From Paragorgia papillata (Eukaryota; Cnidaria; Anthozoa; Scleralcyonacea; Coralliidae), in NCBI GenBank assembly GCA_035771165.1, contig JAWNZC010000238.1, forward strand, positions 1,494,001-1,558,000: a stretch of 64,000 bases of DNA, given 5' to 3'. Of this stretch, positions 2,840-59,372 are shown piece by piece; the first letter of the stretch is position 1; each line of letters begins with the position of its first letter. The position numbers were made by a program, and so were the translations under genes. The notes below the pieces were generated by a model. It was not told the DNA's origin and made no database searches. It saw only the letters and a list, made by a program, of their open reading frames with translations.

Positions 2840-4204
2840 AACTTAAGAGGTATACATATATAGCTGACAGTGAGTCGATTAGAACTAGTCTTCAGAGTCG
2901 AGTGGGATTCCACTAGATGCTCTTAAAAAAGCATTGTACTGCAATACAAACGTGTGCCCCTTTTCGTTTTTGCCTAACTGTTGTTTTAAATTTTTAGAAG
3001 AATTTTGGAATTGCCGATTAAGGTACAAAAATACAAGAAATTTTACTTTTTCCTTCAGCTCCAGATGTTAATGTTGACAAAGCCAACTGTCTTGTTAATT
3101 TGCATTTGTATATGTTGCTTTGAGTTTGGAAGGAGATTTGTTCAGTTTGACTTAAAAAGTAGATTTCAGTAAGCATTAGAAAACTGTCTTCAGAATTGAT
3201 TAAGATTCACTAGAATTTCTCGTAAAAAACTTTAAATTGTTGGAAGAAAACCTTTTTTGAAATACCAAAGTAGGAGATTAAGTCTGAATACATACGCCAC
3301 GATATGTCAATAAATTTTGTCGTAAAAAGTCGATCTGCCGAGTAGTACCACAAACTTTTTCAGTCTCTTGTTTTTGTTCCGAACTGTGTACTTTGGTTAT
3401 GATTTACATAGATATCATTCTAAATTCTTAATAGAAGAAAACTTTTTTTTTGGGATGTAAAACAATACGAGATCAGTCTACAAGTTCACAATTGTCATTC
3501 TTTGATCTGCATAATATATCATGTCAGAGAAATTTAAGCTGAGATTATGATCTTTGAGAAGATATATCTTTGTTTTAGTTTTAGCGTGTTCTAGATCATT
3601 CTAATGTTTGGTACGTAAAACTGAGATAACAACGTAGATGCTAAACTTATAAAATCAGATAGGTGCATGCATGAAGGAAATCGGGTGTATTTATAGCACC
3701 ATTTGCATTCTATTCTGTGTAAACGCGCCAATATATTTCATTCTGTTTTGCGCGTTTCGTATCTGGGGCCGTAAGAACGATCTTATATAACTACTCTTTT
3801 TTCGTCTGTAGTATGCTTTGCAATTAATTTTCAGATCTAAAATTAGACAATTTCTTCTGGTTGTTATCGCCAGACGCTTCTGTGTGATGCATATATACAG
3901 AGAAGAAGTGCCAGACGATAAAGAATATATTCTCCGAAATGAAACTAAATAATTATAAAACATAAAATAATTACTAAATGGGGCTCATGTGCATATATAC
4001 TCCCTTCTAAACCCCTCTTATCTTAATAAAAAATAATTTAAATCTCAGTTATGTTCTGAGCTTGTACTGTGTGCCTATATTTTGTTTATATGCAGATTAG
4101 CATGAATATTTTTCAGAATGTCTCATAATTTAGTGACACAATGTGACATATTTTAGCATATTCTAGATTAAGTGGATTTTCTTTCACAAAAAAAAAGAAG
4201 TATT
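2840..4204. repeat. Tandem duplicated non-coding unit, copy b
   Basis: Second copy of the 90-2390 unit. It is shorter, because material equivalent to roughly 600-1300 of copy a is missing. No gene is visible. The stretch from 4205 to 4630, between this unit and the copy 1 duplicon, holds nothing I recognise. Confidence 0.6.
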
Positions 4205-4995
4205 TGCAGCTTCTATGTTTGTTTTAATGGGCATGATAGATGACACTATGTTTTTTGTTAGAGCTGATCGGAAACTCGCAGTGTTGATGAGACGCAGCTT
4301 TTTATCTAAAAACACAGTTTAGTTGTGGTGAGTTCTTGTATATAAAAATAGTGGTTTTGCTCTTGGCGTAGAATAAAGTTCCGATTTAGAGAAGCAATCG
4401 TTTTTATTTATTTTCAAAGATTTGTCAGACAAGTACACACATACAAATAAGAAAACTTAAGTATAATTAACACGAAGCAAAGACAAAAGCATGGAGGGAC
4501 GACTGCCGACCACGGATTTAAAACCTCCAGTGGGCATGCAATATAAATAAACGGAGTCTATAGAACAGTTTTGGTCTAACAATTACGTCTAGATTGTAGA
4601 AACGCGCTGTGCCGAGTGGCTATAGCTAGTGTGCAAAAATATAGGGAAGTCTGGTGACATGCTTCTTCGAGAAAATTCTGAAATTCAGTAGAGTCCTTGA
4701 ACTGTCATTTTCTGCATTTTAGCAAAATATTTTACAGAATCCTGAAAATTACATGTTATATTTTAATTTAAGCCAAATGAAAAACTTGATCAAAATTTTT
4801 TTTAACTTGATCTGAAAATACGGCACTGGCAAGTGTGGAGTGAACGATTTGTGGACACTTGACATCTTTGCTAATTATGGTAAACCATTAAATAAATAAT
4901 TCTGTAATCCTATTGCCAAAATTACTTTTGGTTTCAGCAAATTTCTGAAACCCTTCACTGCCTTCAGTACTTGTTTTCGAATAGCTAAGTTTTGT

Positions 4996-5133: not shown

Positions 5134-5842
5134 ATGAAGTGTCTTGGTGTTCTCGCAGTTATTGCTTTGGCATTTGTTTGCTTACATGCAGGTATTTTTA
5201 CACTATATTATTGTAACTGAGTTGTTGTAACATCCTGAGAACGTTTTACATTACGCATCTTATTAACCGCGTTAACCATGTATAGAATGTACGGAGTTTG
5301 AAAAATCCTTGGTCACTAGTTTTTAACTTTCTATTGTGAAATTTTACTGAATGTTATAACTCTTATTGTATGCAGATGGAGCTGAGACCGATGTCGTTCG
5401 TGTGTTTGACCCAAAAGTGAACGTACAGTCTAAAAAAGAAATGCTCAATATTTTGAAAGAGGCAAACTTGGAAAAGTTTGGTTTCAAAAAGACCGTGGAA
5501 AGCTCCATTGAAACCGACGAAAATGGAGACAAGAGAGTGAAGAAAACGATCTACTACATGGTGATTGCTAAGTGTTCAGAAGCTGCTTACTGGGAAGGCG
5601 TTTTAGAGGAACGCTTACACGTCGACTTTCTCTCATCTAAACTCAGGCGAAAATTCGTTCGAGAAGTTCAAAGTCGCATCAAGGGACGTGGCACAAAGTA
5701 TTGCAAAATTGGAATGGAAATTCACCCGGATCGATTTGGTCAAGATTCTACGGTCAGTAACGTAGCAAAAAGAGGTATAGAGGGATCTCTGATTTCTAGC
5801 CGTCGGCATTGGTGGTGTTGTTATGCTAAAATTGTGTACTAG
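5134..5842 (+). CDS. Small secreted Cys-containing protein, family copy 1 (two exons)
   Basis: Exons 5134-5191 and 5376-5842 join across a 184-bp phase-1 intron with GT and AG ends, giving 174 residues. Residues 1-19 (MKCLGVLAVIALAFVCLHA) form a typical signal peptide, with the mature protein probably starting at DGAE. Residues 42-60 (MLNILKEANLEKFGFKKTV) look helical. The core CSEAAYWEGVLE is at 86-97, and RKFVREVQSRIKGRGTKYCK is at 111-130. Lys151-Arg152 could be a convertase site freeing a 22-residue tail with WCCY near its end. Cysteines outside the signal peptide are 86, 129, 167 and 168. The ATG is chosen because it is identical in position in all paralogues. It is predicted secreted, through the endoplasmic reticulum. 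I do not recognise the family; immune effector, recognition peptide or hormone precursor are all possible. The gene model is well supported, the function is not. Confidence 0.8.
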
Positions 5843-17650: not shown

Positions 17651-18038
17651 TTCTAAAAAGAATCACTTCATACGTTCATTGGCGTAGTAATTTTGAAAAT
17701 TAAGCTTATCTCAGCCGTTAAAAACCAGCGAGAAACTTAGAGCGAGTCTATATCACATATATAGATCCGATACGCTCATGATTTTTCTTTGTGTTTTCCT
17801 CATGAATTATTAATGAATTTTAGAAATATATATATATATATAGTCTTTTTTTATCTCTCTCGACTTCTTTGTCTCGACTCTCAACTTTTTAGTCTCGACT
17901 CACTCGACACTCGACTTTTGGTTACACTCAGAGTCAGACAGTGTTACCGCTAAGAACAAGGTCAAACATTTTAATTTGATTTTGTCTTCTGAAACTCGCT
18001 GAAACCCTTGAGCACTTGCAGTCAATTATAAGTTTTGT

Positions 18039-18066
18039 CATGTGAACAACTAAGAGAGTTTAAAAG
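18039..18066 (+). promoter_or_regulatory. Putative promoter of copy 2: CATGTG and TTTAAAAG
   Basis: CATGTG is at 18039-18044 and TTTAAAAG at 18059-18066, 118 bp before the ATG, as in copy 1. Confidence 0.5.
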
Positions 18067-18176
18067 ACGAACCTCTGCAGCAGAGCATTCACTTCCAGTT
18101 AGAAACCTCCGCGAAAGTTGGTTAAGATCAAGAAATCCGAAGTTCAGAGAGAAGAAAACAGTGTGAACTTTTTATC

Positions 18177-18905
18177 ATGAAGTGTCTTGGTGTTCTCGCA
18201 GTTATTGCTTTGGCATTTGTTTGCTTACCTGCAGGTATTTTTACACTATATCATTGTAACTGAGTTGTTGTAACATTCTGAGAAAGTGATATACATTGCG
18301 CGATTAAAGCAGACCTGCATGCACTCGTTCGTTAACCTATAGAGTGTATAGTCCAGTTTGAAAAATTCTACTGTCTATTGTAAAATTTTACTGAATGTTA
18401 ACTCTTATTGTATGTAGATGGGGCTGAGTCCGATGTCATTCGTGTGTTTGACCCTGAACTGAAGTTATATAAAGAAGAAATGCTCAATATTTTGAAACAG
18501 GCAAACTTGGAAAAGTTTGGTTTCAAAAAGACCGTGCAAAGCTCCATTGAAACCAACGAAAATGGAGAGAAGACAATGAAGAAAACGATCTACTACATGG
18601 CGACTGCTAAGTGTTCAGAGGCTGCTTACTGGGAAGGCGTTTTAGAGAGTCGCTTACACGCAGATGTTCTCTCAAATAAATTCGGCCGAAAATTCGTTCG
18701 AGAAATTCAAAGTCGTATCAAGGGACGTGGCACAAAGTATTGCAAAATTGGGCTGGAAATGCACCTGATTGACCTGATGCGATGTTGTGAAGATTCCGAC
18801 ATGCCGGTCAGTAACCTAGTAAAAAGAGCTAAGCGGTCAGTGAAGGCAGCTACTGTCCGTCAGCATTGGTCTTGTTGCTATGCTAAAATTGTGTACTTAG
18901 ACTAG
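18177..18905 (+). CDS. Small secreted Cys-containing protein, family copy 2 (two exons)
   Basis: Exons 18177-18234 and 18418-18905 join across a 183-bp phase-1 GT-AG intron, giving 181 residues. The signal peptide differs from copy 1 only at residue 18 (Pro for His). The central core is the same as in copy 1. The region after the core carries Cys142-Cys143, which copy 1 lacks. Lys155-Arg156, with a second KR at 158-159, precedes a tail containing HWSCCYAKIVY. There are six cysteines outside the signal peptide. One extra T after the KIVY codons moves the stop and adds Leu-Asp. Most differences from the nearest relative, copy 3, change amino acids, while the surrounding DNA is nearly identical. 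The ORF is intact and probably functional. The function is unknown. Confidence 0.8.
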
Positions 18906-18984
18906 CATGATTTTAGGAAAGTCCAAGTTTGTAATTCCTTACTGGATGATATTTAGATGTAATAGATGTTTGGGTTTTAACATA

Positions 18985-18990
18985 AATAAA
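18985..18990 (+). terminator. Polyadenylation signal AATAAA, copy 2
   Basis: AATAAA 80 bp after the stop codon, in the same context as in copies 1, 3 and 4. Confidence 0.6.
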
Positions 18991-19072
18991 TCTTTGATTG
19001 GGCATTAACGACGATATATGTCTTTTGCTTTTTTATATTTATTTAACTGATTTTATCAGTCCAAACTTAATT

Positions 19073-20013
19073 ACTCGGGTCGGACGAGTCTAGGTTTCGG
19101 CTTTCTTTTTGGGGGGGAGGGGGGGGGGGGGGGTTCCACAAAATGGTAATTATTGCATCATCCCGTCAGGCCTTGCGAAACTGTAAGGCATGTCGATTTT
19201 CGATTTTTCGAGTTCTTTCTTTTCGACAGCTTTGCCTTTGAAAGAGTTGGGTTGATCATGAGGTGATTTCCGCGGTATTGGTGAATTCGTCAGTAGTTGA
19301 TCAGTAATGTTGCTGACAAGGTTTGTCCATGAAGACAGAATAGACGAGTATATTACAGACGGGAGAAAATGTTAAAAATGCCGTGTTGACATCAGTACCT
19401 AGGAAGCCTTGAGTTGAGGACTAGAGAATACAAGATAGAGCCACATAATATCAAAGAACATATACGTATTGTTTACCTAGTATTAAACGCCTTGCTGCTT
19501 GGTCCAACAACTACGAAACACATGTGGTAGGCACCGAATAATGCAAAAAATATGTTTTAGTCGTCTACAAGTCCCCCTATCATGAAGGTGTCGTATAATA
19601 CATTTGGGAATGTGTTTCAAAAATGCATGTTTAATCTGTTGGTACGATTTACATGAATTCTATATCGGAACCATCGATTGAATCTGCCGAATTTAGCACT
19701 ATAGGTTTTGTGGTTTTGTCTGGTCTACTGAAAGTATTATTAAGATCGTTTAATTCGACTAAACGGGCTTGTTGTCACCAAATTGCTTCATGGAACTAAG
19801 TACTTCATATTGGACCATATATAGATAATTTGTGTCGAGCGCCCTACTCGCAAATACATAACACTGCTTAATGATTGCTTCTGAGAGTTTTGTACTTTTT
19901 AACAGACACTTAATATGCACACGCTGTTCCTAAGGTTTTCTAGATGTGCGAAGACTGCGACAATATTTGCAGAAATCAGTAGCCCGAGTGAACGTCTGAG
20001 CAGGCGTCTTGTT
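19073..20013. mobile_element. About 940-bp insertion in the 3' flank of copy 2
   Basis: Copies 1 and 4 read straight through this point (compare 6005-6010), so this is an insertion. It starts ACTCGGGTCGGACGAGTC and ends with GAACGTCTGAGCAGGCGTC; the ends are weakly inverted. The same insertion is at 24014-24949 behind copy 3, so it predates that duplication. A fragment of its end recurs at 62285-62332. A G-run at 19113-19134 is near the left end. Confidence 0.6.
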
Positions 20014-20335
20014 GAGTTATAATTAACAACTTATTTCGTAAAGCTGCGAAGTGTCTGTTACACTTTATGGGGCGCCAAGTGTAAATTTATTATTTAGCAA
20101 AATAGTTGTCATGTTTCCCATTATAAACAAATAAGTGATTGAAAAGAAACGCTTATTTATATATAATAAATTTAAACGGGCTTCATTACTTACAAATAAT
20201 TAAGTTATTTATTGTTTCACAGTTTCAGTGTCTCTACGGTTATTTTCTTTTTATTGATGGGGATATGAGTCTATCTTTGAAGTTGATCAGCAGAATTTTA
20301 GTGAGAGATTTTACTGAAGTGCTTTGCTTTCTCAG

Positions 20336-20400
20336 GGGCTGTTTACATGAGCCGGGCTAGCCCGGCTAACCGGGCTGACACGAAGTGAGATTATCATAAA
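20336..20400. mobile_element. Truncated end of the GGGGCTGTTTAC MITE
   Basis: GGGGCTGTTTACATGAGCC and GGGCTAGCCCGG match the left end of the complete 225-bp element at 25273. The rest is lost at the duplication breakpoint. Confidence 0.6.
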
Positions 20401-20410
20401 TAATCACACA

Positions 20411-21605
20411 TGTGAGATTATCGTTTTTATTAGTGGCGAATCGAAAACAAGTGCTCGAGGGTTTCAGCGAGTTTCAGAGTTTGCTGAAACCAAAAATAAT
20501 TTTGGCAATAGGATTAGAGGATTATTAATATATTATAGCATTCTTAGGCTACGTCCACACGTACGTATACCTTTTCGTAGCGTTTTCATATTGTTTCAGG
20601 TAAGTAGACCATTGTTTTCTATTCCCTTGAGGACGGAGAACAATATGAAAACGCTACGAAAACGTATACGTGTGGACGTAGCCTTAATTTGACTTGAAGA
20701 AATGTAGTTTGTACGAACGTATAAAATGTCCTAAATTATCGACAGTAAATGATTATTTTGTGTTAAAGTTGGATTGAACGAGTTAAAAAACCGGCGAAAC
20801 ATTATTCTGCGAACTGAAGCAGACTGCTGCTCGACCGCCCTCCCATGAACACTTTAATTATTACCACACCTAGAATATTGTAGCCCATTGCTGATAGGAA
20901 TAAGCAAAACACTACGGTTGAAAAAGCTAATCCCTACAGTTTAAGAACATTAATGAACCGACGTAATAATGTTAGCTACGAATCAGTCCTGAACTTAGCC
21001 TCTATGCGCTCACTGGAGCATATAGACGTCTTGAACAATCATTAATCATATTTTTAAAGAGCTTTTAGCAAAGTGGTCCAACCTATATTTCTAGCCTTTT
21101 TAAACCCCGTATAACTCCATATGCCTTAAGAAGTAATGGTCATAATGTAGTACAGGATTCCTATAATAGTCGCATCCTGCATAATTCTTATACGTAGAGC
21201 ATTTCTCATATCTGGAATCAGTTGCCATTATCTGCCAAATCTGCTACAAAATCCTGGAAATCAGGTATGATTATCGATTTCAATAACTTCAGCTGTTTGT
21301 AGTTGTATAGTTCTTTAGATTATGACAGTTCCACTATACATACAATTATTTTATAAATAGTGCTCTAGTTTTCTTTACGGTTTTCGAAGTTCACTTTGCT
21401 AGTAATGTTAGTATTTTACGAGCTGTTTAGCTCTAAAACGGTGAAATAGTTAAGTTGCCTTACTGATTAATATTACCATAATTTGCGGCGATTTGTATAA
21501 ATATTATATAAAGAAAAATAAGTAAGATTTGGGTTTGGCTGTCTGAAATATATGCTACAATTTACGAGGGGTGACTACCGTCAAAAATTCGATTTCAAAT
21601 TACTT
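20411..21605 (+). repeat. Duplicated block, partner of 13350-15075
   Basis: Direct partner of 13350-15075, with the MITE at 20547-20683 as an extra insertion. No gene is visible. Confidence 0.7.
20547..20683. mobile_element. 137-bp MITE, TIR GGCTACGTCCACACG, TSD TTA
   Basis: Long inverted arms (GGCTACGTCCACACGTA, then GTAGCGTTTTCATATTGTT) with flanking TTA at 20544-20546 and 20684-20686. The paralogous site near 13500-13507 has a single TTA and no insertion. The 3-bp duplication suggests a PIF/Harbinger-type source. Confidence 0.75.
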
Positions 21606-21906
21606 GTTGCTGCCCCCTGGCGGGGGCAGCAACACTAATCTTGACGTGCCTTTGCGTTCACTCGTGCCCAGTCTTTTGGCCGAGCTATGTATAGTCGACA
21701 ATATCTCGATCTCTTTGGATTTTTGGATGTGGATGGATGGATGGATGGATGTGTCGGCAATTGCGCAATCTCTAGATTCTCTAAAGTGGCTTAGTGCGCA
21801 TGTTCGGCTGATAGCCTGACACGTTTCACGTTTTCGAAGATATTTTCAAAGAAGTTCAGCTTTGTCTTCTTTGTCAGGAAATTCACGGTAAGAACAATTC
21901 ATAAAT

Positions 21907-22197
21907 ATGTCTTTACTTTCACGGGGAAGTATTCATCAAGGCCATGAACGTTTCAGTGGCGATTCTCGAGGAAAGCAGTGCTCTTTCATGAGTTTGTCAG
22001 CGCTGTTGACAGCACAAGCTATTTCAGTCGATAAATGGGACTCGACAATCATCGACCATGTCTTAGTTGAAGGAGACAAGATGTACCTGAATGCCTACAA
22101 CAATGGTCTCATCCCACGTGAAGAATTGTTGTCGTTGAACAACTTACCAACTGTCCAAACATACAAATTGCTAGATGTGGAACTGCTGACTGTGTAG
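21907..22197 (+). CDS. Transposon-type C76/OTU-like cysteine protease domain fragment
   Basis: This 96-codon frame starts at an ATG. It contains HQGHERFSGDSRGKQCSF, then SLSALL, then W-DSTIIDHVLVEGDKMY. The pattern F..SRGKQC..MSL..L....W....ID.VL..GD.MY is known from N-terminal papain-fold (peptidase C76-like) domains of proteins encoded by animal transposons, often joined to PIF1 helicases. The Cys in GKQC would be the nucleophile. A catalytic His is not covered by this short frame, and no helicase or Rep domain is present. It is likely a non-autonomous remnant. Its last codons and 3' flank are repeated at 22301-22424. Confidence 0.45.
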   Translation: MSLLSRGSIHQGHERFSGDSRGKQCSFMSLSALLTAQAISVDKWDSTIIDHVLVEGDKMYLNAYNNGLIPREELLSLNNLPTVQTYKLLDVELLTV

Positions 22198-22424
22198 TCT
22201 AACATTCAGAACACTATCATCTTGCAAACTATTAATTATGTTATTGTTCCTGTTATTTTTAAAGAAAAATATATTTTCTCACTATTACCATAATGATACA
22301 CAAACATACAAATTGATAGATGTGGAACTGCTGACTGTGTAGTCTAACATTCAGAACACTATCATCTTGCAAACTATTAATCATGTTATTGTTCCTGTTA
22401 TTTTTAAAGAAAAATATATTTTCT
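22158..22424 (+). repeat. Tandem duplication of about 122 bp
   Basis: 22158-22280 and 22301-22424 are nearly identical. They cover the end of the protease-like frame, its TAG stop and the A/T-rich 3' flank, separated by about 20 bp. Confidence 0.85.
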
Positions 22425-22984
22425 ATTTGTTTTGTCCCATTGATCTATCTGCATTTGTTGATTTGATATATCAAAAAATATGTATAATTATTACTATAGC
22501 CGGCACCAGAAAATCTTAATCCTCAATGTTTAATCTTTCCTGCCTGAAGGTCATTTGAGAAAAATGTAGTAAGTGGGTCTTCTGACCCTAGCAAGTGAAA
22601 GTTACTGCTACTAGCAACCTTGAAGCAACATGACTCTGCACTGCACCACTCCTGTTTGTGGCCGCCAGGCCCTGGTGTTGACCTACTGTACTATACTATA
22701 AGTATAAAATCAGAGTATATCCAGAATTTTTCAGTAGCATATTAGGACTCCATTTGGTCCTTCAGGCAGCACTTTCCTTGCGATAGTAACTTCTAGTATA
22801 TCACTCATCTAGAGGTAGGTCACTGTCACTGTCACTCGAGCTTATGTCTCAACTCTCGACACTCGACTTTTGGTTACACTCGGACAGTGTTACCGCTAAG
22901 AACAAGGTCAAACATTTTAATTTGATTTAGTCTTCTGAAACTCGCTGAAACCCTTGAGCACTTGTTTTCAATTATAAGTTTTGT

Positions 22985-23012
22985 CATGTGAACAACTAAG
23001 AGAGTTTAAAAG
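22985..23012 (+). promoter_or_regulatory. Putative promoter of copy 3: CATGTG and TTTAAAAG
   Basis: CATGTG is at 22985-22990 and TTTAAAAG at 23005-23012, 119 bp before the ATG. Confidence 0.5.
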
Positions 23013-23123
23013 ACGAACCTTCTGTATCAGAGCATTCACTTCCAGTTAGAAACCTCCGCGAAAGTTGCTTAAGATCAAGAAACCCGAAGTTCTGAGAGAA
23101 GAAAACAGTGTGAACTTTTTATC

Positions 23124-23856
23124 ATGAAGTGTCTTGGTGTTCTCGCAATTATTGCTTTGGCATTTGTTTGCTTACCTGCAGGTATTTTTACACTATATTA
23201 TTGTAACTGAGTTGTTGTAACATTCTGAGAAAGTGATATACATTGCGCGATTAAAGCAGACCTGCATGCACTCGTTCGTTAACGGTTAACCTATAGATTG
23301 TATAGTCCAGTTTGAAAAATTCTACTGTCTATTGTAAAATTTTACTGAATGTTAACTCTTATCATTATATGTAGATGGGGCTGAGTCCGATGTCATTCGT
23401 GTGTTTGACCCTGAACTGAAGTTATCTAAAGAAGAAATGCTCAATATTTTGAAAGAGGCAAGCTTGGAAAAGTTTGGTTTCAAAAAGACCGTAGAAAGCA
23501 CCATTGAAACCAACGAAAATGGAGAGAAGTCAATGAAGGAAACGATCTTCTACATGGCGACTGCTAAGTGTTCAGAGGCTGCTTACTGGGAAGGCGTTTT
23601 AGAGGAACGCTTACACGCAGATTTTCGCTCATCTAAATTCGGCCGAAAATTCGTTCGAGAAATTCAAAGTCGTATCAAGGGACGTGGCACAAAGTATTGC
23701 AAAATTGGGCTGGAAATGCACCTGATTCACCTGCATCGATGTTGTCAAGATTCCGCCATGGTCAGTAACGTAGTAAAAAGAGAAGTGCGGTCAGAGAAGG
23801 GAGGTCATTGGTCTTGTCGGTGTGCTAAAATTGTGTACTTAGACTATATAGCATGA
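23124..23856 (+). CDS. Small secreted Cys-containing protein, family copy 3 (two exons)
   Basis: Exons 23124-23181 and 23375-23856 join across a 193-bp phase-1 GT-AG intron, giving 179 residues. The signal peptide has Ile for Val at residue 9 compared with copy 2. The core block is identical to copy 2 over RKFVREIQSRIKGRGTKYCK. Cys142-Cys143 are present. Lys154-Arg155 precedes a tail with HWSCRCAKIVY, a different cysteine spacing from copies 1 and 2. There are six cysteines outside the signal peptide. The C-terminus is extended to LDYIA by the extra T seen in copy 2 plus a 4-bp TATA insertion. Intact and probably functional. The predicted product is secreted and its role is unknown. Confidence 0.8.
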
Positions 23857-23930
23857 TTTTAGGAAAGTCCAAGTTTGTAAATCCTTACTGGATTATATTT
23901 AGATGTAATAGATGTTTGGGTTTTAACATA

Positions 23931-23936
23931 AATAAA
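23931..23936 (+). terminator. Polyadenylation signal AATAAA, copy 3
   Basis: AATAAA 75 bp after the stop codon, same context as the other copies. Confidence 0.6.
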
Positions 23937-24013
23937 TTTTGATTGGGCATTAACGACAATATAGGTCTTTTGCTTTTTTATATTTATCTAATTTTTTCAG
24001 TCCAAACGTAATT

Positions 24014-24949
24014 ACTCGGGTCGGACGAGTCTAGGTTTCGGCTTTCTTTTTTTTTTTTTTGGGGGGGGGGGTCCACAAAATGGCAATTATTGCATCATCC
24101 CGTCAGGCCTTGCGAAACTGTAAGGCATGTCGATTTTCGATTTTTCGAGTTCTTTCTTTTCGACAGCTTTGCCTTTGATCGAGTTGGGTTGATCATGTGG
24201 TGATTTCCGCGGTATTGGTGAATTCATCAGTAGTTGATCAGTAATGTTGCTGACAAGGTTTGTCCATGAAGACAGAATAGACGAGTATATTACAGACAGA
24301 AGAAAATGTTCAAAATGCCGTGTTGACATCAGTACCTAGGAAGCCTTGACTTGAGGACTAGAAATACAAGATAGAGCCACATAATATCAAAGAAAATACA
24401 CGTACTGTTTACCTAGTATTAAACGCCTTGCTGCTTGGTCCAACAACTACGAAACACATGTGGTAGACACCAAATAATGCAAAAAATATGTTTTAGTCGT
24501 CTACAAGTCCCCCTGTCATGAAGGTGTCGTATAATACATTTGGGAATGTGTTTCAAAAATGCATATTTAATCTGTTGGTACGATTTACATGAATTCTATA
24601 TCGGAACCATCGATTGAATCTGCCGAATTTAGCACTATAGGTTTTGTGGTTTTGTCTGGTCTACTGAAAGTATTATTAAGATCGTTTAATTCGACTAAAC
24701 GGGCTTGTTGTCACCAAATTGCTTCATGGAACTAAGTACTTCATATTGGACCATATATAGATAATTTGTGTCGAGCGCCCTACTCGCAAATACATAACAC
24801 TGCTTAATGATTGCTTCTGAGAGTTTTGTACTTTTTAACAGACACTTAATATGCACACGCTGTTCCTAAGGTTTTCTAGATGTGCGAAGACTGCGACAAT
24901 ATTTGCAGAAATCAGTAGCCCGAGTGAACGTCTGAGCAGGCGTCTTGTT
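24014..24949. mobile_element. About 936-bp insertion in the 3' flank of copy 3
   Basis: Same element as 19073-20013. On its minus strand an 80-codon frame (24087-24329) contains NSPIPRKSPHDQPNS and KAVEKKELEKSKIDMPYSF. In the copy 2 version its upstream part is interrupted by a stop. It may be an element-encoded or captured exon, but I do not recognise it. Confidence 0.55.
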
Positions 24950-25272
24950 GAGTTATAATTAACAACTTATTTCGTAAAGCTGCGAAGTGTCTGTTACACT
25001 TTATGGGGCGCCAAGTGTAAATTTATTATTTAGCAAAATAGTTGTCATGTTTCCCATTATAAACAAATAAGTGATTGAAAAGAAACGCTTATTTATATAT
25101 AATAAATTTAAACGGGCTTCATTATTTACAAATAATTAAGTTATTTATTGTTTCACAGTTTCAGTGTCTCTACGGTTATTTTCTTTTTATTGATGGGGAT
25201 ATGAGTCTATCTTTGAAGTTGATCAGCAGAATTTTAGTGAGAGATTTTACCGTGAAGTATTTTACTTTCTCA

Positions 25273-25497
25273 GGGGCTGTTTACTGAGCCGGGCTAGCCC
25301 GGTTAGCCGGGCTGTCACGAAATTCTTTCCTTGGCCACAAAAACAGATTTTAATCAACGTTAGGATTCGTTTACATCTAAGCTAAATCGATTCTTCTTTG
25401 TACATTTAGTTTACGCGAGTTTCAAATCCACAGTGAGATCCTAATTAATCGCGGGAGCCCAGTTAACCGGGCTAGCCCGGTTCATGTAAACAGCCCC
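25273..25497. mobile_element. 225-bp MITE, TIR GGGGCTGTTTAC, TSD TCA
   Basis: The ends GGGGCTGTTTAC..GAGCC and GGTTCATGTAAACAGCCCC are inverted, with GGGCTAGCCCGG beside each. TCA flanks both ends (25270-25272, 25498-25500). The empty site is at 6617-6622 in the copy 1 duplicon. Non-coding. Confidence 0.75.
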
Positions 25498-32401: not shown

Positions 32402-32998
32402 TTTTACCATCCGAAAGTAACGACCCCCCGAAAGTAGCGACCCCCCGAAAGTAACGACTCCCCGAAAGTAACGACTCCCCGAAAGTAACGACTCCCCGAA
32501 AGTAACGACCCCCCGAAAGTAACGACTGCCCGAAAGTAACGACCCCCAAAAAGTAACGACCCCACAAAAGTAACGACCCCCCGAAAGTAACGACCCCCCG
32601 AAAGTAGCGACTCCCCAAAAGTAACGATCCCCCGAAAGTAGCGATCTCCCAAACGTAACGATCCCCGAAAGTAGCGACCCCCCGAAAGTAGCGACCCCCA
32701 AAAGTAACGATCCCCGAAAGTAACGATCCCCCGAAAGTAGCGACCCCCAAAAAGTAACGACCCCCCAAAAGTAACGACCCCCCGAAAGTAGCGACCCCCC
32801 AAAAGTAACGATCCCCGAAAGTAGCGACCCCCCGAAAGTAGCAACCCCCCGAAAGTAACGACCCCCCGAAAGTAACGACCCCCCGAAAGTAACGATCCCC
32901 CGAAAGAAGCGACCCCCAAAAAGTAACGACCCCCCGAAAGTAGCGACCCCCCGAAAGTAGCGACACCCCGAAAGTAGCGACCCCCCGAAAGTAGCGAT
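32402..32998. repeat. 17-bp minisatellite (CCCCCCGAAAGTAACGA)
   Basis: About 35 units of 16-17 bp, varying at GTAAC/GTAGC and at the C-run. A single related unit sits upstream at 32085-32101. All three minus-strand frames stay open for 104-222 codons and read the same SLLSGGRYFRGVVTFGG-type repeat, because 17 is not a multiple of three. I regard these frames as non-coding. Confidence 0.9.
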
Positions 32999-37129: not shown

Positions 37130-37846
37130 CTAGTACACGATTTTAGCATTCCAACAAAGCAAACACCAGCTACAACCCTTAACTCCCCGCACATTTCTTT
37201 TTGCTAGGCCACCGACTATGGAATCCCGACGACACCGATCCGGGTGAATTTCCAGCCCAATTTTGCAATACTTTGTGCCACGTCCCTTGATACGACTTTG
37301 AATTTCTCGAACGAATTTTCGGCTGAGATTGGATGAGAAAATATCACGATCGGCGTATACTAAGCGTTTCTCTAAAACGCCTTCCCAGTAAGCAGCCTCT
37401 GAACACTTGGCAGTCACCATGTAGCGGATCGTTTCCTTCACTCTCTTGTCTCCATTTTCGTCTGTTTCAATGGCGCTTTCCACGGTCTTTTTGAAACCAA
37501 ACTTTTCCAAATTTGCCTCTTTCAAAACATTGAGCATTTCTTCTTTAGATAACTTCAGTTCAGGGTCAAACACACGAATGACATCGGTCTCAGCCCCATC
37601 TACATACAATAAGAGTTAACATTCAGTAAAATTTTACAATAGATCAACAGTAGAATTTTTCAAACTGGACTATACACTTTATAGGTTAACGAACGAGTAC
37701 ATGCACGTCTGCTTTAATCGCGCAATGTATATATAACTTTCTCAGAATGTTACAACAACTCAGTTACAATGATATAGTGTAAAAATACCTGCATGTAAGC
37801 AAACAAATGCCAAAGCAATAACTGCGAGAACACCAAGACACTTCAT
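37130..37846 (-). CDS. Small secreted Cys-containing protein, family copy 4 (two exons)
   Basis: On the minus strand, exons 37846-37789 and 37599-37130 join across a 189-bp phase-1 GT-AG intron, giving 175 residues. The signal peptide is identical to copy 1. The mature region shares TDENGDKRVK and HPDR with copy 1. It has three extra residues before RKFVREIQSRIKGRG. A single Cys142 replaces the Cys pair of copies 2 and 3. Lys153-Arg154 precedes a tail with GCSWCLLCWNAKIVY, giving six cysteines in a C-x2-C-x2-C pattern not seen in the others. It ends at KIVY as copy 1 does. Intact and probably functional. Predicted secreted, function unknown. Confidence 0.8.
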
Positions 37847-46343: not shown

Positions 46344-47000
46344 ACTAACATCAAGCTGCAATTTCTGAAACTAACTTTTAGAGTTATCGAATTTTCACTA
46401 TCACAGCTAACACAGGAGGTTGAATGGGCTTGCATAAAAGGCCGTAAAAAGATAACTATTGAAAATTTTACAATTCCCAGACACACTTGTCACCAGAATG
46501 TTAAGTTACTCGAATACAATTTTTAGACGATTCTGATAAAATTTGTGTTCACTTATAGCCTTTTAAATTTCTTACTTTAGTTCAAAATATTTCTTTCAGG
46601 AAAAGCCGTGTGAAAGAAACCTCTTGTCACTTTTTTCATTGCTTAGAAATAAAAAAAACATTTCCGGAATCTGAAAGCCCTCATAAAGTGCTTCACTTTC
46701 AGCGAATAAAAAAATTAAAAACACTATGGTTTGGAGGTCTACAGTAACCCTAAAAATACAGTTACAGCGATGCTCGTGACGTCGATCGTTTATTCAAGAG
46801 TATACAGAATTATATTAATAATATTACAGAATGTTTTGATATATAGTATAAAGGTTACCAATCAGCCTGAAACATTTGAATTCAAAATACTATTATTAAT
46901 TAACGGATGCATGACAGCTACTTTGTATCAAATTACGAACTTAGAGTTCCCGAAGAGGAACTCTTCTAGGGGGGTCCGGGGGCATGCCCCCCCTGGAAAA

Positions 47001-50000
47001 TATATAACACCTTTAGCCGAAAATACCCCATTTTTGGAAAAGATGGAAGGAATGAGTTAAATTGTCTGAAATTTTCAGATTAGTCTACTTTTACCAAGAT
47101 AAAGCGTTAGTTAAAATATCAAGAGAAACCATTAAGTCAAACAATGTGAACCAACACACCGCTCCATATATACGGCTTATACTCTCTCTATATATAACAC
47201 CTTTAGCCGAAAATACCCCTTTTTGGGAAAAGATGGAAGAAATCTGTCAAATGGCCTGAAATTTTGAAATTAATCTACTTTTACTAAGTTAGAACTATGG
47301 TTAAAATATAAAGAGAAACCATGAAGTCAAACAATGTGAACCAACACATCACCCCATATATGCGGTTTTTACTCTCTCTATATATAACACCTTTAGCCGA
47401 AAATACCCCATTTTTGGAAAAGATGGAAGGAATGAGTCAAATTGTCTGAAATTTTCAGATAAGTCTACCTTTACCAAGATAAAACTTTAGTGAAAATATC
47501 AAGAAAAATTATAAAATCAAACAATGTGAACTGAGAGACATTATTCAAGGGAGACTATTTAGTCTCCCCTGCATGGAAAGGGAGACTAATTAGTCTCCCT
47601 TCAGATTTTAGACTTGTCGTTTGCATGGGACAAATTTGGAACACAATTAACAAGTGCCAAGTTAAAAGTATGGTTAAAGTATCATAAAAAATTATAAACT
47701 GATAAAGTCAGACAATGTCAACCAACATATACGCACTCCGTGATATGCCGTTCATGCTCTATATATAACACCTTTAGCCGAAAATACCCCATTTTTGGAA
47801 AAGATGGAAGGAATCAGTCAAATTGTCTGAAATTTTCAGATTAGTCTACTTTTACCAAGATAAAGCGTTAGTTAAAATATCAAGAGAAACCATTAAGTCA
47901 AACAATGTGAACCAACACATCGCTCCATATATACGGCTTATACTCTCTCTATATAACACCTTTAGCCGAAAATACCCCATTTTTGGAAAAGATGGAAGAA
48001 ATCTGTCAAATGGCCTGAAATTTTGAAATTCATTTACTTTTACTAAGTTAGAACTATGGTTAAAATATAAAGAGAAACCACGAAGTCAAACAATGGGAAC
48101 CAACACATCACCCCATATATGCGGTTTTTACTCTCTCTATATATAACACCTTTAGCCGAAAATACCCCATTTTTGGAAAAGATGGAAGGAATGAGTCAAA
48201 TTGTCTGAAATTCTCAGATAAGTCTACCTTTACCAAGATAAAACTTTAATTAAAATATCAAGAAAAATTATAAAATCAAACAATGTGAACTGAGAGACAT
48301 TATTCAAGGGAGACTATTTAGTCTCCCCTGCATGGAAAGGGAGACTAATTAGTCTCCCTTCAGATTTTAGACTTGCCGTTTACATGGTACAAATTTGGAA
48401 CACAATTAACAAGTGCCAAGTTAAAAGTATGGTTAAAGTATCATAAAAAATAATAAACTGATAAAGTCAGACAATGTCAACCAACATATACGCACTCCGT
48501 GATATGCAGTTCATGCTCTATATATAACACCTTTAGCCGAAAATACCCCCATTTTTGGAAAAGATGGAAGGAATGAGTCAAATTGTCTGAAATTTTCAGA
48601 TAAGTCTACCTTTACCAAGATAAAACTTTAGTGAAAATATCAAGAAAAATTATAAAATCAAACAATGTGAACTGAGAGACATTATTCAAGGGAGACTATT
48701 TAGTCTCCCCTGCATGGAAAGGGAGACTAATTAGTCTCCCTTCAGATTTTAGACTTGTCGTTTGCATGGGACAAATTTGGAACACAATTAACAAGTGCCA
48801 AGTTAAAAGTATGGTTAAAGTATCATAAAAAATTATAAACTGATAAAGTCAGACAATGTCAACCAACATATACGCACTCCGTGATATGCCGTTCATGCTC
48901 TATATATAACACCTTTAGCCGAAAATACCCCATTTTTGGAAAAGATGGAAGGAATCAGTCAAATTGTCTGAAATTTTCAGATTAGTCTACTTTTACCAAG
49001 ATAAAGCGTTAGTTAAAATATCAAGAGAAACCATTAAGTCAAACAATGTGAACCAACACATCGCTCCATATATACGGCTTATACTCTCTCTATATAACAC
49101 GTTTAGCCGAAAATACCCCATTTTTGGAAAAGATGGAAGAAATCTGTCAAATGGCCTGAAATTTTGAAATTCATTTACTTTTACTAAGTTAGAACTATGG
49201 TTAAAATATAAAGAGAAACCACGAAGTCAAACAATGGGAACCAACACATCACCCCATATATGCGGTTTTTACTCTCTCTATATATAACACCTTTAGCCGA
49301 AAATACCCCATTTTTGGAAAAGATGGAAGGAATGAGTCAAATTGTCTGAAATTCTCAGATAAGTCTACCTTTACCAAGATAAAACTTTAATTAAAATATC
49401 AAGAAAAATTATAAAATCAAACAATGTGAACTGAGAGACATTATTCAAGGGAGACTATTTAGTCTCCCCTGCATGGAAAGGGAGACTAATTAGTCTCCCT
49501 TCAGATTTTAGACTTGCCGTTTACATGGTACAAATTTGGAACACAATTACCAAGTGCCAAGTTAAAAGTATGGTTAAAGTATCATAAAAAATTAAAAACT
49601 GATAAAGTCAGACAATGTCAACCAACATATACGCACTCCGTGATATGCCGTTCATGCTCTATATATAACACCTTTAGCCGAAAATACCCCATTTTTGGAA
49701 AAGATGGAAGGAATCAGTCAAATTGTCTGAAATTTTCAGATTAGTCTACTTTTACCAAGATAAAGCGTTAGTTAAAATATCAAGAGAAACCATTAAGTCA
49801 AACAATGTGAACCAACACATCGCTCCATATATACGGCTTATACTCTCTCTATATAACACCTTTAGCCGAAAATACCCCATTTTTGGAAAAGATGGAAGAA
49901 ATCTGTCAAATGGCCTGAAATTTTGAAATTCATTTACTTTTACTAAGTTAGAACTATGGTTAAAATATAAAGAGAAACCACGAAGTCAAACAATGTGAAC

Positions 50001-51340
50001 CAACACATCACCCCATATATGCGGTTTTTACTCTCTCTATATATAACACCTTTAGCCGAAAATACCCCATTTTTGGAAAAGATGGAAGGAATGAGTCAAA
50101 TTGTCTGAAATTTTCAGATAAGTCTACCTTTACCAAGATAAAACTTTAGTTAAAATATCAAGAAAAATTATAAAATCAAACAATGTGAACTGAGAGACAT
50201 TGTTCAAGGGAGACTATTTAGTCTCCCCTGCATGGAAAGGGAGACTAATTAGTCTCCCTTCAGATTTTAGACTTGCCGTTTACATGGTACAAATTTGGAA
50301 CACAATTAACAAGTGCCAAGTTAAAAGTATGGTTAAAGTATCATAAAAAATAATAAACTGATAAAGTCAGACAATGTCAACCAACATATACGCACTCCGT
50401 GATATGCAGTTCATGCTCTATATATAACACCTTTAGCCGAAAATACCCCCATTTTTGGAAAAGATGGAAGGAATCAGTCAAATTGTCTGAAATTTTCAGA
50501 TTAGTCTACTTTTACCAAGATAAAACGTTAGTTAAAATATCAAGAGAAACCATTAAGTCAAACAATGTGAACCAACACATCGCTCCAAATATACGGCTTA
50601 TACTCTCTCTATATATAACACCTTTAGCCGAAAATACCCCTTTTTGGGAAAAGATGGAAGAAATCTGTCAAATGGCCTGAAATTTTGAAATTAAGCTACT
50701 TTTACTAAGTTAGAACTATGGTTAAAATATAAAGAGAAACCATGAAGTCAAACAATGTGAACCAACACATCACCCCATTTATGCGGTTTTTACTCTCTCT
50801 ATATATAACACCTTTAGCCGAAAATACCCCATTTTTGGAAAAGATGGAAGGAATGAGTCAAATTGTCTGAAATTTTCAGATTAGCCTACTTTTACCAAGA
50901 TAAAACTTTAGTTAAAATATCAAGAAAAATTGTAAAATCAAACAATGTGAACTGAGAGACATTATTCAAGGGAGACTATATTTAGTCACCCCTGCGTGGA
51001 AAGGGAGACTAATTAGTCTCTCTTCAGATTTTAGACTTCATGTCGTTTACATGGTACAAATTTGAACACAATTACCAAGTGCCAAGTTAAAAGTATGGTT
51101 AAAGTATCATAAAAACTGATTATAAACTGATAAAGTCAGACAATGTCAACCAACTTATGCGCACTCCGTGATATGCAGTTTATACTCTATATATAACGCG
51201 TTTATTAGCCGAAAATACCCCATTTTTTGAAATGATGGAAGAAAACTGTCAAATGGTCTAAAATTTTGAAATGAATTTACTTTTACCAGTTAGAACTATG
51301 GTTAACATATCAAGAGAAACCATGAAGTCGAAGAATGTGA
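47001..51340 (+). repeat. 190-bp satellite with ABCD higher-order repeat
   Basis: About 22 monomers. Monomers A, B and C start TATATAACACCTTTAGCCG and are spaced 188-191 bp. The fourth, D, is marked by twin hairpins GGGAGACTAnTTAGTCTCCC (around 47548, 48307, 48690, 49449, 50208, 50972). The order is ABCD, ABCD, CD, ABCD, ABCD, ABCD, with a period of about 759 bp, then a decayed unit. Equivalent monomers in different units are almost identical, while A, B, C and D differ clearly. The repeated 67-codon frames inside are by-products. Confidence 0.9.
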
Positions 51341-51656
51341 ACCAACACATATATAAAACCTTTAGGCCTAAAAAACACTTTTAGGAAATATTGAATAAAT
51401 TAGTCAAATTTCCCGAAATTTTGAAAAGAGTCCACTTTTACCAAGTTACTGACTTTTACCAAGTTAGAACTTTAGTTAAAATATCAAGAAAAATTATGAA
51501 GTCAGACAATGTTGACCATGCACCACAGTTATATGTAGTTTATACTCGCTATACAAAACATTTAGGTCAATATGTACCTATTCGAAATCGAAGGCGTTTT
51601 CTTGTTGAAAATGATACAACAGTGTTGGCATGACCACATGATCATTATTATCGTCG

Positions 51657-54829: not shown

Positions 54830-57299
54830 AAACTTTATTAAATGATTTTTCTTTTCTACATATACAATTATAAATCTCGCTTATTAAGGTAATTTACAAT
54901 TGGCTACTTGAATCACAACTAATAATATATAATAACAACTAATGACTATATAATAAAACATGCAAATTTATATACAAATATTTCAAAAAGCTAATAATTC
55001 GGGATTTCCCCATTCCTTATTTCGGCAGCAGAAAATGTAATACGTAGTTCTGATAGCAATAGTCATCATTTTCCTTACGCAGTACATTTGGTGCTTGTTA
55101 TCAAGACCAACCTTATCTAGCATATCTAAAAAAGTAGAACACTCATTCGCAAAAACACCTATAGGCAGCTCATGGAGAGATTTATAAATTTTACATCATT
55201 AAAATGTTCACTTTGCTGTTTTACTAGTTCACTATATTTATCTTCTTTCCATTTGACGTTGTTTTGGAGGTTTGATTCAAAACCAACAGTAAGTTCGAGA
55301 ACATAAAGACGGCCGTTTGAACAATGCAATAGCAAATCTGGACGATACGTGTCACCAGTTAGGATAGATGGGCTTTTGAATCCAGGCAGATCGACAAAGA
55401 GGTTTGAACCGTTAACAGTTTGTAAGGTATTTGCAAGAAAGTTAAGAATTGAATTGTGCCTCCATGTAAAGCGTTCAAGATACGATTGACAACCAGCAAC
55501 AACGTGTAGTAGTGTTTCTGGGCTCAGACAAAAGGAGCATTCTGGACTTGAAGATATTCCCCATCTGTGAAGGTTTTTGCGTGTCGGAGTAGAATTGTTC
55601 ACATAACGTATAGTAAAGTTATAAATGTTTTTTGGCAGTTTTGATTGAGCAGTTGATCACACCTTGTTAAGCTTTGATAAGGAGAACTTTGTAACGTTAG
55701 AGAAAAAGGATCCGTGACAAGTCAAGTGGTTTTGAAGTCTATCTTCATGCCCAGAATGGAAATCTTTCAGAACTTCTTTAGTAGAGTTATAGACGTCGTA
55801 TTGAATATTAGTATGATTATTAGTGGATTTCCACAGTTCGTTAATTGCTTCATTTGGAGAATATTTTAAGGCTTTGCGTAGAGCAGCTTGGCATTGAATA
55901 AATTTTACTGATGGAGGATAGATACTTTGACCAAATTTGTTACGTGTTAGATATATAGTACTTAGTGTTCCTGGTATTGGTATTTCAAGCCATTTACGGA
56001 TGTATTGGTTGATTACAGAATCAATATTTTCAGAAATCCAAGTTTTGGACAGTGTAGCAACGGTGAAATGCCAGGATAATTTGGATAAGACGTAGCGACT
56101 ATACAGGAGAAGTTTATTTTTTGGGTGAAGTGGTTTTGAGTCAATGTCAGACATTAGTTCATCAACGAGAGTAGTCAGCTCAGTCTTATGATTTTGATTC
56201 GACATGTCAAAATCAAAGTAGCATCCTAAGTATTGAAATGATTCTCCAATGTTGATTGCTGGTATAAGATTTTGGTTGATAAGGAGTTTCGGCAAGTATT
56301 GTACTGACTTTGTAATGGCTTTCTTGATGCCAAAAGTGCTACATTTATCAACCCGGATTAACATATTCGACCATTGGCACCAGATGGAAAAACGATTTAA
56401 AAGATGCTGGTTTTCTGACTCTTGACCAGTAATTACAGCAGCATCATCAGCAAACTGGAACCAGTGAATTGGATTTAATAGTTTGAAAGAAAAGCTAAAT
56501 TGACTGTACTTGTCAGCTTTAATATGTTGAATAAACGTGTTAAAGCACATATTGAACAGAAGGGGACTCAGACAATCTCCTTGCAATACGCCACGGCCAA
56601 CAGATATAAAAGGAGTGCGGAATTCAGATGTAATTATCGAAGTCTTAAAATCTGTGTATAAACTTTTTATAACAAAATTAATGTGGTCAGGGATATGGTG
56701 GTAATCAAGTACGGATTGAATTAGGTTGGGGTGGACTTCGCCAAAAGCGTTTTTGAGGTCAAGTAGCGTGATGACAAGAGAGCGTTGATTGATCCGGGCT
56801 TTATTAATAATGTGGGCCATTTGCGCAGTATGTTCTAAAGTGCCAGACAAATTAGGTGTGAAGCCTTTCTGTATGTTATGTTCGATGAAGTTATTTGATG
56901 TAAGGAAGGAGTATATTGCGTTTCGAAGACAAGATGTAAATACCTTTAAAGGTATTGTCTCGAGTGTTATGGGACGAAAGTTCGAGGGGACATTTGTGTT
57001 GCCTTTCTTATGGATTAGTATGGTACATGCTCTTTTCCATTCAGTTGGGATAGTTCCAGATAACCAAATATCGCGTATTAGTTCAGTGAGGTGAGTTCTC
57101 AGAAAAGGACATCGTTTGGAATCCAGCTGGGAATATGAAACAGTTTATTAGGATTAATTTTAGCCATAGCTTGAGAGAAATAAGCAAGGCAGTCTGCCAT
57201 GTTAAAGGATGGTAATACTGCTTCTTTTCTGTTTATAACATTTTTAACATAGCCCCAAAAGTTTCGCCCGAGATATTTGTCGTGGTTGAATGAGTCCAA
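54830..57299 (-). pseudogene. LINE A: non-LTR retrotransposon with restriction-like endonuclease, truncated and broken
   Basis: Minus strand, 5' truncated. Reverse transcriptase: WKRACTILIHKKGN and FRPITLE near 57060-56980, LLDLKNAFGEV near 56770, GVLQGDCLSPLLFN near 56580, and the catalytic FADD near 56450. It then has a CCHC knuckle, C-x2-C-x7-H-x4-C (CSFC..H..C), near 55530-55480. The endonuclease follows, with RPD, then LYVLELTVGFE 13 residues on, and a Lys-rich KWKEDKY. RT plus CCHC plus an RPD..E..K endonuclease at the C-terminus is the layout of R2-type LINEs. Defects: an in-frame TGA at 55657-55659, a frameshift near 55170-55180 and one near 57120-57140. The pre-RT part reads FWGYVKNVINRK. 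Dead copy. Confidence 0.8.
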
Positions 57300-58894: not shown

Positions 58895-59372
58895 TGGATG
58901 GAGTGGGTAAACTCAGGTGGAGTGGGCAATCTTGGGTGGAGTGGCCAATCTCAAGACAGTGGAGTGGGCAAACTTGTGGGTAAACTTAGGTGGAGTGGGC
59001 AATCTTGGGTGGAGTGGGCAATCTTGGGTGGAGTGGGTGATCTTGGGTGGAGTGGGTGATCTTGGGTGGAGTGGGTGATCTTGGGTGGAGTGGGCAATCT
59101 TGGGTGGAGTGGGTGATCTTGGGTGGAGTGGGTGATCTTGGGTGGAGTGGGCAATCTCGGGTGGAGTGGGCAATCTTGGGTGGAGTGGGCAATCTCGGGT
59201 GGAGTGGATAATCTCGGGTGGAGTGGATAATCTCGGGTGGAGTGGATAATCTCGGGTGGAGTGGGCATTATCTCGGCCGGTGGAGTGGATAATCTCGGGT
59301 GGAGTGTGTAATCTTGGGTGGAGTGGGCATTATCTTGGGTGGAGTGGATAATCTCAGGTAGAGTGGGCAAGG
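58895..59372. repeat. 20-bp minisatellite (GGGTGGAGTGGGCAATCTTG)
   Basis: About 22 units with GGGCAA/GGGTGA/GGATAA variants. The array lies between GCAGGCAACTCTGTG (58880) and its near-complement ATAGAGTTGCCTG (59399), and then reaches the CTTGCGATAGTAATTTCTAG end shared with the 21606 element. Minus-strand frames rich in Pro, Thr and His are by-products. Confidence 0.85.

Follow-up and report, generated by a model that had tools for sequence, protein, structure and literature searches.

Probable positive selection and contrast-exaggerating gene conversion in a tandem cluster of putatively secreted proteins from the octocoral Paragorgia papillata

Genes whose coding exons outpace their non-coding parts are known from venoms. 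The phospholipase A2 (PLA2) isozyme genes of the snake venom gland, studied by Nakashima in 1993 (as cited in PMC4280545), reportedly underwent accelerated evolution in which exons changed faster than introns and untranslated regions (UTRs) and the ratio of replacement to silent divergence (dN/dS, or omega) exceeded 1. In the three-finger toxin genes of viperids, conserved introns accompany divergent exon segments, a pattern termed accelerated segment switch in exons to alter targeting (ASSET; PMC2474615). Here we analyse a similar contrast in a 64,000-bp stretch of the 618-Mb genome of the octocoral Paragorgia papillata (the window; C238:1494001-1558000), which carries four copies of one gene family, the plus-strand copies c1, c2 and c3 and the minus-strand copy c4. 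A genome search for the family returned 13 matches, ten of them within about 95 kb on contig C238; we label the six cluster copies beyond those of the window g0, gA, gB, gC, gD and gE. Positive selection on exon 2 of c2 and c3 is supported. The account we favour, and consider fairly probable, is that the two are young, positively selected tandem duplicates, probably of a secreted octocoral family, in which gene conversion has exaggerated the contrast between exon and flank.

Every window copy consists of a 58-bp exon 1, likely a signal peptide judging from its sequence, a phase-1 intron with predicted GT..AG splicing, and an exon 2 whose product runs from a domain through a basic site to a C-terminal segment that ends in, or close to, AKIVY. 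The signal exon is conserved across this tandem multigene cluster: seven close copies show 0 to 2 differences in its 58 bases. Between c2 and c3, exon 2 differs at 33 of 473 bases, 16 of 350 in the core and 17 of 123 in the tail, and the 13 differing codons of the core comprise 12 that alter the amino acid and one that is silent. A first-pass annotation of this DNA had claimed as much for the core (about 16 differences, near 4.6%, over the first ~117 codons; about 13 codons replaced and one silent), and its other exon and intron counts held up similarly: a more diverged tail with codon-sized indels (3 bp and 12 bp, with an additional 4-bp indel at the stop codon), a ~180-bp intron with about two differences plus indels (3 of 183, plus two indels, 10 bp), and a fixed signal peptide (exon 1 is nearly so, with one Val/Ile difference in 58 bases).

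Its description of the 3' flank, some 800 bp with about three differences, fared less well. With the poly-G/T tract at 19104-19136 masked, c2 and c3 differ at 23 of 685 positions (3.4%) from the stop codon to 19629, at none of 558 from 19630 to 20187, and at 7 of 192 from 20188 to 20380 (5 of 730 across 19601-20330), so that the flank is quiet only within the middle block. Because 20,000 permutations of the 3' flank never produced a difference-free run of 559 columns, this 558-bp block is probably a recent conversion tract. The 5' flank and UTR differ at 11 of 280 positions (3.9%), and the non-coding columns outside the block at 44 of 1340 (3.3%), the reference for the c2-c3 rates below.

Against this reference, silent divergence in exon 2 (2.4%) matches the flank (ratio 0.73, p=0.62), and replacement divergence (8.2%) is 2.5 times that of non-coding DNA (p=2e-4); the underlying Nei-Gojobori (NG86) counts are 30.7 replacement differences (Nd) over 373.5 sites and 2.3 silent differences (Sd) over 97.5. 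The replacement excess is due to the tail, which runs at 5.0 times the non-coding rate (p=2e-6), as opposed to 1.63 times in the core (p=0.12). The earlier statement that the exon diverges faster than its flanks is borne out significantly by the tail and not by the core taken alone. Pairwise maximum likelihood (ML) gives omega 6.6 with a likelihood-ratio test (LRT) statistic of 5.96 (p=0.015); the 1.92-unit interval begins somewhere from 1.3 to 1.5 and has not closed at 100, and a parametric bootstrap reached the observed LRT in 5 of 400 replicates under F3x4 codon frequencies and in 11 of 400 under equal ones. By region, the pairwise test returns p=0.02 for the tail and p=0.13 for the core.

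The wider family points the same way. All codon counts were made without g0, the two copies on contig C95 and C314, and gA entered the pairwise counts but not the branch and site models. On the eight-gene tree, the c2 and c3 tips together have omega 10.7 relative to a background of 1.28 (p=0.006; p=5.6e-4 when compared with 1), so that dN/dS is well above 1 both pairwise and on the tree. A single ratio for the whole tree (model M0) is 1.62 (p=0.016), with 2.46 in the tail (p=0.007) and 1.33 in the core (p=0.26). Model M2a is preferred over M1a across the eight paralogues (p=1e-13), placing 24% of sites at omega 7.3, a result repeated on the core, on the tail, on both halves of the core and with one gene per recent pair.

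An excess of this kind could in principle come from relaxed constraint or chance, with a spare copy drifting and the scarcity of silent changes a matter of luck in a short exon. Silent changes are expected to make up 20-28% of the 33, and the probability of two or fewer ranges from 0.027 to 0.002 depending on kappa (the transition/transversion ratio), with that of three or fewer reaching 0.08; this, together with a background omega of 1.2-1.3, leaves some room for such an explanation. However, relaxation brings omega to 1 and not higher, the tail runs at five times the neutral rate, and neither gene shows decay: frames are open, GT..AG splice sites are kept and the 3- and 12-bp indels are in frame. 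We regard relaxation or chance as unlikely.

Several points nevertheless weigh against selection on this pair. The core is not significant in the pairwise test (p=0.13) or relative to the corrected flank (p=0.12), and simple counts of replacement versus silent changes yield p=0.03 for exon 2, 0.15 for the core and 0.09 for the tail. All such p values are optimistic because c2 and c3 were chosen for looking extreme. Two other young pairs lack the pattern (gB-gC, Sd 0 and Nd 3; gE-c1, Sd 3 and Nd 3), and tails are identical within each. Site models are also sensitive to recombination, which can inflate them.

The first-pass annotation had offered exon-limited exchange as an alternative to positive selection: exon 2 would have been replaced, or spared amid homogenised surroundings, and would therefore be fast at silent and replacement sites alike. 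This fits the older pairs of the cluster. In gB-c4, differences number 16 of 190 at -500 to -300, 4 of 547 between -300 and the intron's end, and 58 of 461 in exon 2, and the silent core sites of exon 2 differ at 9 of 72 versus 12 of 504 for nearby non-coding DNA (p=4e-4). The same excess at silent core sites (p<0.05) occurs in 7 of 21 close-copy pairs, namely gB-c4, gC-c4 (p=1.6e-4), gE-c4 (p=4e-4), c1-c4 and gC-gE (both p=6e-4) and, more weakly, gB-gE (p=0.009) and gC-c1 (p=0.011), pairs that are not independent of one another; the remaining 14, c2-c3 among them, do not fall below 0.05. The intron was omitted from the reference where gE or c1 is paired with other copies. Both ends of the c1 intron (5192-5375) and of the gE intron match the other five close copies compared, and the middle deviates from those five by ~17-19% raw difference plus gaps. 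In wide-flank profiles of gC-c4, c1-c4 and gE-gC, 7-12% of positions differ beyond -300, near the silent rate of exon 2, and the 3' flank differs by 3-9% (gC-c4, c1-c4) or 2-3% (gE-gC). Since sequence beyond -300 is near the silent rate and the nearer part is quiet, the near 5' part looks homogenised, in gE-gC together with the 3' flank.

Gene conversion has thus apparently homogenised the near 5' part of the older copies, and a quiet intron cannot by itself show that the exon is fast. That conversion has made flanking and 5' sequence uniform is well supported for the older pairs and likely for the 3' block of c2 and c3. Flanks homogenised around an exon that was not, the finding that the first-pass annotation had set against selection, seem to occur in part, in that block and in the seven pairs, but the silent sites of c2 and c3 stay flank-like (2.3 of 97.5 versus 44 of 1340). 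Moreover, an imported tail should carry silent changes, as in the older close copies among the eight, where tail dS is 0.06-0.42; c2-c3 has 1.2 silent differences over 27 sites. At 23 of the 25 differing codons the differing state is private, none of the six other copies compared having it; the changes thus resemble fresh mutations that arose on each lineage and not imports from those copies. Of the differing bases, 24 could be polarised, 13 to c2 and 11 to c3 (nine could not), and by direction 7 run from weak (A/T) to strong (G/C), 3 from strong to weak and 14 are neutral; GC-biased conversion was considered on these counts and rejected as the cause of the c2/c3 changes. With silent sites no more diverged than the flank and nearly all differing codons private, import is not supported for c2 and c3, and we judge exon-limited exchange distinctly unlikely as the explanation of this pair. 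The other half of the original interpretation, positive selection, is supported.

The family itself is large. A protein database search with c2 found 5 proteins (E 3.9e-39 to 1.6e-32), including P0005, which is LOC114525219 of the octocoral Dendronephthya gigantea and the closest named relative; a profile search at E<=10 found 114 (worst E 1.3e-6). Of the 119 related proteins, the 12 that carry an organism name are all from octocorals, Dendronephthya (10) and Paramuricea (2). Matching the family against Pfam and other families and against solved structures gave no match, and a fold comparison of its predicted model gave nothing above noise. Literature searches did not find the family described, which does not in itself prove that no description exists; the family is apparently unnamed, and its kind of evolution is already known. 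We analysed 123 proteins, the 114 from the profile search and nine cluster copies, of which 108 are full length; the 15 dropped have no recognised junction or a tail under 25 residues.

The domain is followed by KR or RR in 107 of these 108 members, and by KR/RR or [RK]xxR in all 108. This raises the possibility that the C-terminal segment is set free as a cysteine-rich toxin or antimicrobial peptide, with the domain serving only as a pro-region, following the logic of cathelicidins, and the arginine-rich tails of the distant copy g0 and of P0110 are consistent with it. However, AlphaFold2 (AF2), run on an alignment (A2) of 95 sequences (91 of the 114 profile-search proteins plus the four window copies; predicted local distance difference test, pLDDT, 82.2; predicted template modelling score, pTM, 0.74), places the segment as a confident last strand of the domain (residues 150-160), after a strand, a helix, two strands, two helices, a strand and a loop at 122-147 with pLDDT<50. 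The basic site lies within this loop, RAKR in c2 and REVR at the same place in c3. The supposed peptide is thus predicted to be the final strand of the domain, following a disordered loop. Cysteine counts likewise suggest a tether. The C-terminal segment has three cysteines in 62 of 108 members and five in 18; c4 has three, the commonest number in the family, and c1, c2 and c3 have two, with two further cysteines in the linker of c2 and c3. Linker and tail counts agree in parity, odd with odd (76 versus 4) and even with even (13 versus 6; Fisher 8e-9), in the 99 of 108 rows that have two domain cysteines, the nine others being dropped. Against this, these counts follow a second placing of the linker boundary (the first split gave 74/3 versus 7/15), and p values are optimistic because rows share ancestry. 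Release of a free peptide is, in our view, possible but doubtful.

Changes concentrate on the same region. The M2a posterior exceeds 0.9 at 20 sites, 13 of which lie in residues 121-154; 8 of the 25 c2/c3 codon differences fall within the 26-residue loop; and across A2 the domain (residues 20-116) has a mean pairwise identity of 0.62, as compared with 0.39 for linker and tail. On the favoured account of positively selected young duplicates, both copies kept signal peptide and scaffold after the duplication while their amino acids changed at more than the neutral rate, chiefly in the C-terminal loop and the strand that follows it, an acceleration shown statistically. The signal peptide would export a small folded domain; a furin-like protease may, from the motifs, cut the disordered loop at its RxxR/KR sites; and the cysteine-containing strand would stay packed on the domain, probably tied by disulfides. 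A changing surface suggests a changing partner, for which a linker and tail less alike than the domain is expected, and the hypervariable loop and strand may meet a pathogen, prey or competitor molecule. We infer a function in defence or venom. A venom, immune or gamete role, drawn from analogy, remains a guess because a match to a known family is lacking; present evidence does not separate venom, antimicrobial defence and recognition. Tentatively, the product may be a two-chain protein of possibly new fold, its disordered basic-site loop and final strand forming a diversifying recognition or protease-bait surface. Positive selection would maintain the diversity of that surface in the cluster, and gene conversion the uniformity of promoter region, signal exon and intron.

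For matrix or housekeeping secreted proteins, tandem copies with omega above 1 at many sites would be unusual. It is accordingly very improbable that the family is a skeletal matrix or housekeeping secreted protein outside any arms race, even though octocorals have lineage-specific matrix proteins, such as scleritin (PMC7853314).

Table 1. Coordinates of the c2 and c3 features and of the other window paralogues (window positions)
Feature	Position	Strand	Remarks
c2 exon 1	18177..18234	+	likely signal peptide MKCLGVLAVIALAFVCLPA, judged from sequence; phase-1 junction; spliced frame open
c2 intron	18235..18417	+	GT..AG; 3/183 differences to c3
c2 exon 2	18418..18905	+	domain, loop, C-terminal strand, stop; 33/473 differences to c3
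c2 basic site RAKR	18825..18836	+	from translation; furin-like motif, putative cleavage
c2 C-terminal segment SVKAATVRQHWSCCYAKIVYLD	18837..18902	+	residues 150-160 predicted strand
c3 exon 1	23124..23181	+	
c3 intron	23182..23374	+	predicted, GT..AG
c3 exon 2	23375..23856	+	
c3 basic site REVR	23779..23790	+	RxxR motif, putative cleavage
c2 3' block identical to c3	19630..20187	+	probable gene-conversion tract
c2 duplicon, extent aligned	17889..20380	+	BLAST and MAFFT against c3
c3 duplicon, extent aligned	22842..25330	+	BLAST and MAFFT against c2
c1 paralogue	5134..5842	+	exon 1 5134-5191, exon 2 5376-5842
c4 paralogue	37130..37846	-	exon 1 37846-37789, exon 2 37599-37130

The copies also differ at their ends and surroundings (Table 1). 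One added T in c2 (about 18897) and c3, where c1 (5840) and c4 have their stop codon, lengthens both proteins by LD and c3 by a further YIA. Downstream of c2 and c3, the 3' flank contains a stretch of ~0.95 kb (19066-20012) that is missing from the flanks of c1 and c4, which suggests an insertion predating the c2/c3 duplication. In the distant copy g0 (L014, C238:1433000-1440500, locus 3521-4225) the conserved domain leads into a long tail of arginine/glycine repeats and an RIRVRVRVRI stretch in place of the cysteine segment, and two similar distant copies ~320 kb apart on C95 (L015, L016) bear a poly-isoleucine tail, VVIIIIIIPTTMKGVIEY. Elsewhere in the window are an open frame between c2 and c3 (21907-22197) whose Pfam match to Herpes_teg_N is weak and under the cut-off (E 3e-5); minus-strand reverse transcriptase fragments at 55159-56850 (RVT_1, E 2e-18; zf-RVT just under cut-off); a large tandem array at 47000-51342 (unit 190/381 bp); and smaller minisatellites at 32411-32997 (17-bp unit) and 58895-59367 (19-bp unit).

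Taken together, these observations add a large, unnamed octocoral family to the likely arms-race genes, provide a testable map of the contact surface (loop 122-149, strand 150-160), and show within a single cluster how real positive selection (c2/c3) separates from its homogenised-flank look-alike (gB/c4). By homology over domain and tail, the window genes belong to one octocoral family with LOC114525219 and others of Dendronephthya gigantea and hypothetical proteins of Paramuricea clavata, which share the domain, basic site and C-terminal cysteine segment. Cathelicidins join a cathelin (cystatin-like) pro-domain to a C-terminal antimicrobial peptide freed after a protease site; basic sites are present here too, but the predicted packing of the strand speaks against release. 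The small cysteine-rich proteins of corals (SCRiPs) have a mature domain of eight cysteines, and membership was rejected on a C-terminal segment with mostly three or five and a c2 exon-2 product with six in all. Among octocorals, novel putative toxins of Eunicella singularis are likewise small, secreted and cysteine-containing, some in expanded families and 28 of them unknown proteins; the same source gives intronless genes for an octocoral acrorhagin-like cysteine-rich superfamily, a placement we rejected because each of the four window copies has a predicted phase-1 intron with GT..AG ends (PMC11896702). Unlike ASSET genes, c2 and c3 carry private point changes instead of switched segments, and several other cluster pairs involve homogenised 5' parts. 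Snake venom PLA2 genes, for an unrelated protein, offer a parallel: both are tandem multigene families in which coding exons outpace introns and UTRs with dN/dS above 1, although here likely conversion tracts account for part of the quietness of intron and flank. With dN/dS significantly above 1, c2 and c3, unlike the two other young pairs, resemble positively selected tandem effectors of the PLA2 and three-finger toxin kind.

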